Origin: a virus
Strand: one strand, 5' to 3'
IMG/VR virus record: IMGVR_UViG_3300024344_000110
Span: 1-26,314 of that record
Length of the DNA stretch: 26,314 nucleotides
Shown here piece by piece: positions 435-3,879 of this stretch. Position 1 is the stretch's first letter; every line of letters begins with the position of its first letter. The position numbers and the translations under genes were made by a program. The notes below the pieces were generated by a model. It did no database searches. It saw only the letters and a program-made list of their open reading frames with translations, and was not told where the DNA came from.

Positions 435-616
435 TACTCATCCTCCCATACATCATCAATTACAAATCCATTCTCATTTGAGTTTTGTAATTCACTCCAT
501 TTTTCAACAGGTATTTTTTCTGCTTTTTTAATTGCCTCTTTATCATCTTTAGCTTGTACATTTATTTCATACTGCTCGTAAACTGTATAACCACCTATGA
601 CTTTGTATGTTTTCAT
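434..616 (-). CDS. Small acidic protein of unknown function, 60 aa
   Basis: The sequence opens with an apparent beta hairpin (MKTYKVIGGYTVYEQYEINV). A lysine- and glutamate-rich helix (AKDDKEAIKKAEK) and an acidic end (VIDDVWEDE) follow. This beta-beta-alpha pattern recurs in many tiny phage and plasmid proteins, including the DpnD/PcfM-like group, but the similarity is impressionistic and I give no function. The ATG overlaps the upstream stop (ATGA), and a GGGGAG lies only 3 nt upstream, inside the C-terminal codons of the preceding gene. It belongs to the minus-strand mini-gene operon. Confidence 0.65.
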   Translation of the reverse strand: MKTYKVIGGYTVYEQYEINVQAKDDKEAIKKAEKIPVEKWSELQNSNENGFVIDDVWEDE

Positions 617-804
617 TTACTCCCCGCTTGTTGATTGTAATCATACCATCCAGAATTTTCTAAATAGTCTACCGCCTCTTTTAGATGTTCTCTAAAATGT
701 TTTGTTCTATACTCGCTAGGGCAATCTTCATCAGCGTGGCAACATACCCACGCTAGCATTGACGCTAGCTTGTTCTCTTCGCTTGTCCATTTTTTCTTTT
801 TCAT
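613..804 (-). CDS. Small protein of unknown function, 63 aa (internal start chosen)
   Basis: The frame is open up to an ATG at 840, but the start at 804 is preferred because AGAAGGGA lies just upstream of it within the repeated start module. The extra 12 codons (MKMNKRASRRDS) are only that module read in another frame. The protein starts MKKKKWTSEENKL and contains a Cys/His cluster (CCHADEDC) near residues 20-28, followed by a charged helix. The Cys/His cluster might bind metal, but this is not diagnostic. The stop overlaps the next start (ATGA). Function is unknown. Confidence 0.65.
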   Translation of the reverse strand: MKKKKWTSEENKLASMLAWVCCHADEDCPSEYRTKHFREHLKEAVDYLENSGWYDYNQQAGSK

Positions 805-830
805 ACTATCCCTTCTGCTCGCTCGCTTGT
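805..830 (-). repeat. Repeated start module, copy 1
   Basis: Read on the minus strand, this is ACAAGCGAGCGAGCAGAAGG followed by GATAGT and the ATG at 804. It supplies the Shine-Dalgarno sequence (AGAAGG) for the 63-aa gene and at the same time encodes the QASEQKG tail of the preceding gene. It matches copies at 1043, 1300 and 1511 almost base for base, while the flanking genes are unrelated. Confidence 0.9.
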
Positions 831-1042
831 TCATTTTCATCTATATCAAATTTTCTAAAATCAAAATGTTCTTGAAAATCTTTTAAGCTCCAATCTTCCA
901 TAGATTTCATATATTCATCATTTTGTTTTTTAGCTTCTTCCCAAGTTATTGGTTTTCCACTTTGTTCTGCAGAATAGTGAAAATCTTCTGTATAATCAAA
1001 GGCGCTTGCATACTCTAAAAACATTTTTTTATTGTATTTCAT
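806..1042 (-). CDS. Acidic small protein of unknown function, 78 aa, QASEQKG tail
   Basis: The N-terminus is MKYNKKMFLEYASAFDYTED. The body is rich in Glu, Asp and aromatic residues (WEEAKKQNDEYMKSMEDW, then DFQEHFDFRKFDID). There is no Cys motif or membrane segment. The last seven residues, QASEQKG, are encoded by the repeated start module and recur at the end of the gene at 1301-1510, so they are probably a by-product of that module rather than a functional tail. The start is set by the module copy immediately upstream (AGAAGGGATAAT then ATG). Function is unknown. An acidic phage mini-protein could be a DNA mimic or inhibitor, but nothing here shows that. Confidence 0.65.
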   Translation of the reverse strand: MKYNKKMFLEYASAFDYTEDFHYSAEQSGKPITWEEAKKQNDEYMKSMEDWSLKDFQEHFDFRKFDIDENEQASEQKG

Positions 1043-1080
1043 ATTATCCCTTCTGCTCGCTCGCTTGTTAGTTTTTTCAT
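1039..1080 (-). other. Possible 13-codon leader ORF (MKKLTSERAEGII)
   Basis: A purine-rich GGGGGAAGA sits directly before an ATG at 1080. The frame runs 13 codons through module copy 2 and ends in a TGA that overlaps the ATG at 1042 (ATGA). This geometry is typical of translational coupling. It may be a leader peptide or only a consequence of the module. No protein function is implied. Confidence 0.3.
1043..1068 (-). repeat. Repeated start module, copy 2
   Basis: This is the same 26-bp module as at 805-830. Here it is not the end of an annotated gene: the preceding gene stops at 1096, so the copy lies in a 53-nt spacer. It carries the AGAAGGG ribosome-binding site for the gene starting at 1042. 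Confidence 0.9.
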
Positions 1081-1095
1081 TCTTCCCCCTTATAT

Positions 1096-1299
1096 TTAGT
1101 GATTATTTTTTCTAGGTATTAAATCTAAATTATCACCTTCTCTACTTAAATAAGAAATAAAACCCTCTTTTAGTTTATAATTATCATCAAAACCACTTTC
1201 TATATGTTTTTTGTAATCCAACCAATCTTTATAGAGATATTTAATTGCCAATTCTTTATGTTCTGGATTTCTTAATTCAAGTTTTATTTTCTTTTTCAT
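1096..1299 (-). CDS. Basic small protein of unknown function, 67 aa
   Basis: The protein begins MKKKIKLELRNPEHKELAIKYLYKDW and looks alpha-helical after a short strand. It ends in a basic tail (LIPRKNNH). I see no known motif. The start at 1299 has AGAAGGG upstream inside module copy 3 and lies one base after the stop of the preceding gene. Its own stop is followed by the spacer with module copy 2. Function is unknown. Confidence 0.65.
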   Translation of the reverse strand: MKKKIKLELRNPEHKELAIKYLYKDWLDYKKHIESGFDDNYKLKEGFISYLSREGDNLDLIPRKNNH

Positions 1300-1325
1300 A
1301 TTATCCCTTCTGCTCGCTCGCTTGT
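1300..1325 (-). repeat. Repeated start module, copy 3
   Basis: The 26-bp module gives the ribosome-binding site for the gene starting at 1299 and encodes the QASEQKG end of the gene at 1301-1510, exactly as copy 1 does for its two neighbours. Confidence 0.9.
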
Positions 1326-1510
1326 ATGTCTATAATTTCGTACTCTTCTGGAATTACTAAATTATTTTTCCAACTATTATCAAAATTTTTATAGTGGGTT
1401 TCGTGAAAGTGGTCATTAACATAATCTCTTATGTCTTCTACATCATCAGGAATTTTTATATCTTTAGTCCATTCCTGAGTGGTTTTAATTACTGCTTTAT
1501 ATTTTTTCAT
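1301..1510 (-). CDS. Small protein of unknown function, 69 aa, QASEQKG tail
   Basis: The order is a strand (MKKYKAVIKTTQEWTKDI), an acidic middle (PDDVEDIRDYVNDHFHE) and a second strand (IPEEYEIIDI). This resembles other tiny beta-alpha-beta phage proteins. The final QASEQKG comes from module copy 3. The start is set by the AGAAGGG of copy 4. The gene opens a run of four genes that all use module copies as ribosome-binding sites. No function can be assigned. Confidence 0.65.
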   Translation of the reverse strand: MKKYKAVIKTTQEWTKDIKIPDDVEDIRDYVNDHFHETHYKNFDNSWKNNLVIPEEYEIIDIQASEQKG

Positions 1511-1544
1511 ATCATCCCTTCTGCTCGCTCGCTCGCTCGCTTGT
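1511..1544 (-). repeat. Repeated start module, copy 4, with expanded GCTC microsatellite
   Basis: The copy is 34 bp instead of 26 because the GCTC/GAGC tetranucleotide has two extra units (plus strand CTGCTCGCTCGCTCGCTCGC). It lies in noncoding DNA upstream of the start at 1510 and supplies its AGAAGGG. The length difference suggests replication slippage. Confidence 0.9.
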
Positions 1545-1555
1545 TAGTTTAATAA

Positions 1556-1619
1556 GCGGGTTAACATCAGCCCGCAACTGATAACAACATAATTTTATAC
1601 TCTTGAAGTTAAAGAGTAT
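1556..1619 (-). other. Two hairpins in the gap between minus-strand genes
   Basis: GCGGG (1556-1560) pairs with CCCGC (1571-1575), and ATACTCTT (1597-1604) pairs with AAGAGTAT (1612-1619) across a 7-nt loop. They follow the stop of the 233-aa gene on the minus strand. Neither has a clear U tract, so they look more like RNA processing or stability elements than a strong terminator. I see no gene in 1545-1629. Confidence 0.45.
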
Positions 1620-1629
1620 CCGCACAAAA

Positions 1630-2331
1630 TTAAACATCTTGCACAAATCCTGTATTGTCTTTTAATGCTCGACCCTTCGCATAAAGGCCCGCAATTCCTC
1701 TTGGGTCTTTAAACCTTAAATCTGTTTTATCTGCATTAAAGACTTTATAATTTAAAAATTTTTTAGGTAGTTTTTTATTTCTAAAAACAGCGCTCACGTT
1801 GCCGCCACGTTTTAATATATCAAGCGCTTGCGCTCTATTATCTTCATTTAAGCTATATGTAAGATGATAATTTTTTGGATATTCACCATTAACAAATTTT
1901 AATGCTCGTTTGTAAATTTTTGTGTAGTCGTACCATTTGACTTTTGGAAACTCTTCATATAGCCCGTAAATATTCCAATCTATATCACTCGTGCCGTTTA
2001 AACGTATTGCGGGTTTAAATCCTTTTTTCTTACATCTTAAAATATGTCTTTTTATTTCTTCTCTTAATTGTTTTAAAAAACTTTCACGTTCTATAAAATA
2101 CCATTTTGTTTTATTAATACGTCCTAATTGAACTGAACCCATTTGACCCCGCCCCGCCGTGTTTAAACAGCTTGCCATACATCCCGCGCTTGCCATAGCG
2201 CAAGTATTAAAGCCGCTTGTCCGTTGTGGCGCTAAATATAAAATTGCGGTCATATATTTATATTTTCGACCTTTAATTGTTTTGGCGTTGTTATCTATGT
2301 TAAGAAGTTTTTTTGATTTGTATAATTTCAT
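1630..2331 (-). CDS. gp88-like phage protein with Cys-x6-Cys-x3-Cys motif, 233 aa
   Basis: This resembles the phage gene product 88 type family, whose function is unknown. Visible landmarks are a strand-rich N-terminus with MTAILYLAPQRTSGFNTC, and cysteines 44, 51 and 55 followed by LNTAGRG. Barrel-like stretches RLNGTSDIDW (110-119), YDYTK (134-138) and YSLNE (159-163) come next, and the protein ends in KDNTGFVQDV. The evenly spaced strand motifs suggest a TIM-barrel-like enzyme that uses a Cys-bound metal or cluster. The cysteine spacing does not fit the classical radical-SAM CxxxCxxC. The ATG directly follows the TAA of the preceding gene, and no ribosome-binding site is evident, so translation is probably coupled. 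It is the largest gene of the minus-strand block. The family call is from memory and the enzymatic idea is inference. Confidence 0.7.
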   Translation of the reverse strand: MKLYKSKKLLNIDNNAKTIKGRKYKYMTAILYLAPQRTSGFNTCAMASAGCMASCLNTAGRGQMGSVQLGRINKTKWYFIERESFLKQLREEIKRHILRCKKKGFKPAIRLNGTSDIDWNIYGLYEEFPKVKWYDYTKIYKRALKFVNGEYPKNYHLTYSLNEDNRAQALDILKRGGNVSAVFRNKKLPKKFLNYKVFNADKTDLRFKDPRGIAGLYAKGRALKDNTGFVQDV

Positions 2332-3734: not shown

Positions 3735-3879
3735 GCGGTTTTTTCTTTTTTTCTTTTTTTCTTTTTTTCTTTTTTTCGCTTGTAGATTGTATATTTTTTA
3801 CGGGGTATCCGTTGGCCTTTAACCACTCAATATGTAGCGCCAATAGCTTTCGCATTGGCGGGCCTGCTTTGCGGGTCAT
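3706..3879 (-). CDS. Small protein with octamer-encoded Lys-rich tail, 57 aa
   Basis: The ATG overlaps the stop of the preceding gene as TAATG. The first 33 residues look like genuine protein (MTRKAGPPMRKLLALHIEWL, then KANGYPVKNIQ). The next 14 residues are a Lys/Arg/Glu run produced by the T7C array read on this strand, and the last ten (PLAINLKIII) run through the downstream promoter. Because the repeat unit is 8 bp, gain or loss of a unit would change the reading frame of the tail. I see no homologue from memory. The basic tail could bind nucleic acid, or the functional part may end before it. The gene is short enough to be missed by common length filters. Confidence 0.5.
   Translation of the reverse strand: MTRKAGPPMRKLLALHIEWLKANGYPVKNIQSTSEKKKKRKKEKKKKPLAINLKIII
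3739..3777. repeat. T7C octamer tandem array (copy 2)
   Basis: Cytosines at 3745, 3753, 3761, 3769 and 3777 give the same 8-bp period as the array at 72-130. The unit is identical at the two loci, 3.6 kb apart. Here it lies within the frame of the 57-aa gene and just upstream of the promoter for the 196-aa gene. Confidence 0.9.

Follow-up and report, generated by a model that had tools for sequence, protein, structure and literature searches.

A 27-nt linker between mini-genes of uncultured viral contigs: a probable junction for the exchange of single genes

The DNA analysed here is a viral sequence of 26,314 nt (IMG/VR record IMGVR_UViG_3300024344_000110, positions 1-26,314), which as a whole is referred to as the window. 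It encodes a terminase, a portal and capsid proteins. The best named relatives of the window are the Pelagibacter phages HTVC027P and HTVC023P, with 67-71% nucleotide identity in terL and the portal gene, over parts of these genes only. On the minus strand, a gene of the GP88 family is followed by a leader and by an array of four mini-genes (cassette genes), each preceded by a copy of a short linker. In the order of reading, the locus comprises the following features:

1630-2331, minus strand: gene before the array, family match to phrog_1617 / Pfam GP88 (PF17338)
1546-1629, minus strand: leader, from the end of the GP88-family gene to the first linker; stem-loops predicted at 1598-1618 and 1556-1575 (the latter GCGGG/CCCGC)
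1511-1545, minus strand: first linker of the array, four GCGA-type units plus GATGAT, noncoding, two differences in the 20-mer
1301-1510, minus strand: cassette gene 1 (ORF), 69 amino acids, tail QASEQKG
1300-1326, minus strand: linker upstream of the ATG at 1299, exact 20-mer; also the QASEQKG end and stop of the ORF 1510-1301
1096-1299, minus strand: cassette gene 2 (from the ORF list), 67 amino acids, without the linker tail
1043-1069, minus strand: linker upstream of the ATG at 1042, exact 20-mer, noncoding; the upstream gene stops at 1096
806-1042, minus strand: cassette gene 3 (ORF), 78 amino acids, tail QASEQKG
805-831, minus strand: linker copy before the gene starting at 804, exact 20-mer and profile site; also the QASEQKG end and stop of the gene 1042-806
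613-804, minus strand: cassette gene 4, 63 amino acids, ending NQQAGSK

The linker comprises 27 nt, AACAAGCGAGCGAGCAGAAGGGATAAT, and lies directly before the minus-strand ATGs at 804, 1042, 1299 and 1510. A sequence-only reading of the window had claimed one module at these four starts, and this was confirmed. On the minus strand, the 20-mer ACAAGCGAGCGAGCAGAAGG occurs without mismatch at 811-830, 1049-1068 and 1306-1325 and with two differences at 1517-1536, which are due to extra GCGA units there, while 100 shuffles yielded no occurrence with up to three mismatches. The further statement that all four copies are nearly identical is true for the three exact 20-mers; the fourth copy (27-nt part 1511-1537) extends to about 1545, ends in GATGAT and is not identical. 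It had also been recognised rightly that two copies form the QASEQKG end of the preceding gene and two are noncoding. Both of the latter are located outside plausible genes, and a TTG-started ORF (1646-1512) running through the last copy looks spurious.

After removal of the tails no relatedness among the four window proteins was detectable (best cross-hit E=0.8 over 12 residues). The genes are unrelated, as had been stated, and tandem gene duplication, the finding that was to speak against a swapping of genes, is thereby ruled out. The cassette proteins scanned against Pfam and PHROG gave no confident family match, and cassette gene 2 has no relative among the fetched loci. The junction behind cassette gene 4 consists of a half-linker, AATCAACAAGCGGGGAGTAA; the homologue of this gene in contig L048 carries the full tail NQQASEQKG.

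An 18-mer of the linker was found in 79 viral contigs, one of which (L058, GC-rich) was left out as a chance match, and a 22-mer in 105 viral stretches. A profile search identified 190 copies in 77 loci, with no match in the reversed-sequence control, and a larger set comprised 246 copies in 114 loci of uncultured viral contigs. With about 250 copies in more than 110 such contigs, the distribution of the linker is much broader than the window. Each contig has only one linker orientation, and copies on both strands of a locus were never found (114 loci). All linker-bearing contigs are metagenomic, and most were retrieved via the linker itself. Among loci picked by terL and independently of the linker, presence is patchy: of the 14 with 4 kb or more upstream of terL, three are carriers, all of which have the GP88-family gene. 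Contig L172 has a terL 94% identical to that of the window, yet lacks the linker; its mini-gene row is similar, with ordinary AGAAAGGA-type sites at the starts instead. At 4000-6200 of L172 (minus strand) mini-gene starts recur as TAGAAAGGA-type sites, and a cassette gene, MKKYENYVVITD..., is common to this contig and to the linker-bearing L043 and L074. HTVC027P and HTVC023P gave no profile match to the linker, and BLAST against the INPHARED cultured phages gave no convincing match, of which the low-complexity filter may hide some. An origin from the host was rejected, as the 18-mer occurs at 10 scattered, chance-like places in bacterial genomes, none of them with an ATG context. Literature searches retrieved no description of the linker; in the main text of a study of 80 uncultured HTVC023P-type genomes, neither ribosome binding nor intergenic sequence turned up in a term search (PMC9599517).

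Five longer linker-bearing contigs have genes for helicase, primase, PolA and exonuclease in common with HTVC027P. Four of the five also contain terL and the portal gene, with amino acid identities to the window from about 92% down to about 46%. G005 is the most diverged long contig by terL and portal, yet its linker is exact, and it shares the cassette family MITNDMIHDEDF... with G001, the least diverged one. Homologous terminase, portal and replication genes, as expected for pelagiphages of the HTVC023P/HTVC027P type, are thus present, and judged by sequence the linker-bearing contigs whose core genes were examined resemble these phages; the likeness refers to those contigs, the shorter ones being unplaced. 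SAR11, whose members count among the most numerous bacteria in the surface ocean, would accordingly be the probable host of the window phage.

Within the 190 copies, the consensus is followed by an ATG at the expected position in 184. Read in the frame CAA GCG AGC GAG CAG AAG GGA TAA, the linker provides the tail QASEQKG, and in 132 copies the upstream ORF stops at this TAA; in 16 it stops in the other open frame, at ATGA. The linker contains the Shine-Dalgarno (SD) octamer AGAAGGGA, which ends 4 nt before the ATG. Eight base pairs, including one G-U, are possible in silico between this octamer and the 16S tail UCCUUUCU, which we take to be the 3' end of alphaproteobacterial 16S rRNA, and by this complementarity near the start codon the octamer qualifies as an SD sequence. 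Predicted anti-SD pairing averages -9.6 kcal/mol at linkers, -6.1 kcal/mol at other tight gene starts and -2.2 kcal/mol at random places. The role in translation proposed in the sequence-only reading fits these values, and the linker would act in translation as predicted. A scan for known RNA families gave only a sub-threshold miRNA hit.

Across the linker, about 80 mini-gene families are combined in 126 pairings. At least two partners across the linker were found for 23 upstream and 30 downstream families, where the largest upstream "family" is partly a pseudo-family made of a spurious leader ORF. Where homology between two contigs breaks off, the block border falls on a linker in both of them 53 times on the left, 23 times on the right and six times on both sides; for other gene starts in the same loci the means were 7.5, 8.5 and 0.42 and the maxima 20, 20 and 4, respectively. 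As L100 and L103 are near-copies, the six double-ended cases come down to five separate events. In the corresponding five contig pairs genes were gained, lost or replaced with linkers as borders: in four events a single linker in the shorter contig stands against extra DNA of 237-647 nt in the other, and in the fifth the middle between the linkers is replaced. The genes of the window show the same kind of break, measured against an alignment baseline of about 58% identity for unrelated DNA. Cassette gene 4 is 99% identical on the nucleotide level to a copy in L069 that likewise lies behind a linker (96%), with unrelated DNA and an unrelated gene in front. For cassette gene 1 and its copy in L129 (95%) as well as for cassette gene 3 and its copy in L055 (93%) the linker behind the gene is 96% identical and is followed by a different, unrelated gene.

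The picture of mini-genes swapped like beads on a string is supported by these borders, while the notion of the module itself as a mobile element is not: it is the gene flanked by two linkers that changes, with the linker as the overlap. Partner change amounted to 72% at linkers and to 64% at ordinary junctions of the same loci. Frequent change at the control junctions rules out the linker as sole shuffling site; it is one of several routes of gene shuffling. Linkers within a contig are no more alike than linkers of different contigs, and hence no sign of a recent homogenisation of copies was seen.

We consider it likely that the linker is a shared stop/SD/start junction in a hypervariable mini-gene array, which enables the exchange of single genes by homologous recombination. 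Its 27 nt would supply the last seven codons and the stop of the upstream ORF, the SD octamer and the spacing to the next ATG. Since sequence and phase are identical from junction to junction, recombination between two linkers, whether of one phage genome or of different ones, could delete, insert or replace genes and leave reading frames and translation starts unbroken. The process would be homologous recombination or strand annealing, and the phage exonuclease, encoded in the five long linker contigs and homologous to that of HTVC027P, could feed either. A recombinase acting on the linker was not identified, nor was an integrase among the genes examined. Borders of phage mosaics mostly show no shared sequence, and the gain of single small genes is debated; with one sequence at about 250 junctions, homology-driven gene exchange could be tested directly in relatives of SAR11-infecting phages. 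The linker would also be a sequence handle for accessory genes, by which an ORF behind it becomes a candidate member of the exchanged pool. Selection presumably keeps the linker for translation, for recombination or for both. That near-identity is kept by selection for recombination itself, which would make the array an evolved plug-and-play locus with stop, SD and start fused into a homology block, where accessory mini-genes are sampled from a pool shared by diverged phages with frames and translation intact, is a tentative extension to which we give limited credence.

Conservation could also be a matter of expression only. The linker would then be the site of a factor, a phage or host protein or an RNA, which controls the translation of the genes jointly, and recombination would be a by-product. 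The GAGC part of the linker is nearly invariant despite its lack of pairing with 16S rRNA. Pairing with the ribosome leaves this conservation unexplained, and selection for homology or for a bound factor could each account for it. The fixed position relative to the ATG fits a factor site as well, and the start-associated sequences of cluster K phages have been interpreted along these lines (PMC3203893). Copies differ, however, in how many GCGA/AAGCGAC units they contain, most of all those that open an array, so that an exact site is not strictly kept, and cassette genes also have homologues with ordinary SD sites. No factor was found, and we know of none that binds the linker. Control of expression alone is in our opinion unlikely, if worth keeping in mind.

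The exchange of genes at linkers might instead be largely apparent, if short-read assembly had joined unrelated DNA at an identical repeat of about 24-30 nt. The metagenomic origin of all linker-bearing contigs is in line with such artefacts, as are the 92 of 126 pairings seen in a single sample. The other 34 recur in at least two samples, and even with the leader pseudo-family excluded, five upstream and four downstream families have at least two replicated partners; assembly error is less likely for these families, since their partners are replicated across samples. Moreover, misassembly cannot give the linker its constant position and reading phase. Artefacts as the main source of the alternative neighbours are very improbable.

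Exchange through a shared junction also accounts better for the linker than a selected QASEQKG tail, for instance a protein tag, from which nucleotide conservation would merely follow. The strong preference of upstream ORFs for the tail frame over the other open one agrees with a tag. G-to-A variants, in contrast, are about equally common at nonsynonymous and synonymous positions, the latter not being free to vary, and a pattern test found ten families with both tailed and tailless members (e.g., GWKNQQASEQKG and GWKNQQARNNDTTR), some of these families being loosely clustered. A tag is unlikely because of this similar variation and these mixed families, and with some linker copies noncoding, two of them in the window, we give it hardly any weight. 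The least credible alternative is a promoter before every gene (CTAACA or TCAACA, 17 nt, GATAAT): one copy reaches 9/12 in a consensus scan, but promoter-like sites are at chance level (13 against 11.4, with phage-specific promoter types outside the scan), the variable repeat tract of first copies breaks the 17-nt spacing, and by its geometry GATAAT as -10 element would start the message about at or behind the ATG, without SD or start codon.

As a junction for exchange, the linker can be compared with several known systems. The SAS of cluster K mycobacteriophages (13 bp, consensus GGGATAGGAGCCC) is a short asymmetric repeat a few nucleotides before the ATG of non-structural genes that are unrelated to each other, with one prevailing orientation; it includes the SD, is conserved beyond 16S pairing and in about half of the cases is accompanied by an upstream inverted repeat, and in the extended SAS (ESAS) repeats the arms do not keep complementarity (PMC3203893). 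Like SAS, the linker has a fixed place before the ATG, precedes unrelated genes and keeps a single orientation. It differs in its consensus, AACAAGCGAGCGAGCAGAAGGGATAAT against GGGATAGGAGCCC, in the host and in its length of 27 nt, usually encodes the end of the upstream gene and marks borders of gene exchange; unlike ESAS, the stem-loop precedes the array and its arms stay complementary. Boundary sequences of lambdoid phages were reportedly proposed by Susskind and Botstein in 1978 and by Clark et al. in 2001. As cited in PMC3029335, they are short conserved sequences at gene borders proposed for the exchange of modules by homologous recombination. So described, they share with the linker that homology between genomes starts or ends at a short sequence, whereas here one sequence recurs at nearly every junction of the array and unites stop, SD and the spacing to the start. 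For T4-type phages, PeSLs were reportedly described by Arbiol et al. in 2010 and Comeau et al. in 2014. As cited in PMC4503421, these are repeats of an early promoter and a stem-loop between small genes and are linked to modular shuffling. Measured against this description, the linker is similar as a repeated sequence between small genes that is tied to shuffling, but it shows neither an early promoter, within the types covered by the scan, nor complementary arms, the stem-loop being restricted to the leader. Integron cassettes form arrays of single small genes in one orientation with a common separating sequence and depend on an integrase and attC. The linker array has the same layout; it differs in that no gene has a structured attC-like site, the linker overlaps coding sequence and no integrase was identified. 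By analogy, the linker may work like mycobacteriophage SAS combined with lambdoid boundary sequences. It was not filed as a member of SAS or PeSL, because the SAS consensus is unmatched and no promoter is detectable.

In many arrays a stem-loop lies ahead of the first linker, downstream of the GP88-family gene; its arms differ in sequence and stay complementary. This leader, with constant flanks, variable arms and a long variable loop, was seen in L014, L027, L029, L065, L071, L109, L119, L132, L133 and others. A helix score of at least 9 was reached by 18 of 24 non-redundant leaders, which are not independent cases as some arms are related, compared with 14% when arms from different leaders were paired. 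The leader of the window scored only 6 in the same test; in place of its second stem, GCGGG/CCCGC, L062 has TGTGGG/CCCACA, a matching change that leaves the loop the same. The stem-loop is a possible processing site, terminator or stabilising 5' end. Two contigs, L064 (1385-1613) and L069 (194-356), contain a tandem of two leaders (GATTTGTGCAAGATGTTTAATTTTGTG plus stem-loop) that differ in the stem-loop, which looks like an exchange or stacking of leaders as well.

Other sequences shared by otherwise unrelated genes were observed. Genes starting with MTQRD(D/E)GHDYRDSKNKAQAYER in the window (434-213), L129, L133, L134, G004 and G006 have this N-terminus in common and continue with unrelated sequence, which is apparently another recombination joint near the array end. 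On the reverse strand of G006 (2028-2301) a second, unrelated ORF has the GFVQDV tail known from the GP88-family gene, and this suggests another shared junction sequence. Finally, the window contains two tracts of an 8-nt tandem repeat, CTTTTTTT (plus strand), at 71-130 and 3737-3777, the latter of which lies within a small ORF and encodes a lysine-rich stretch.
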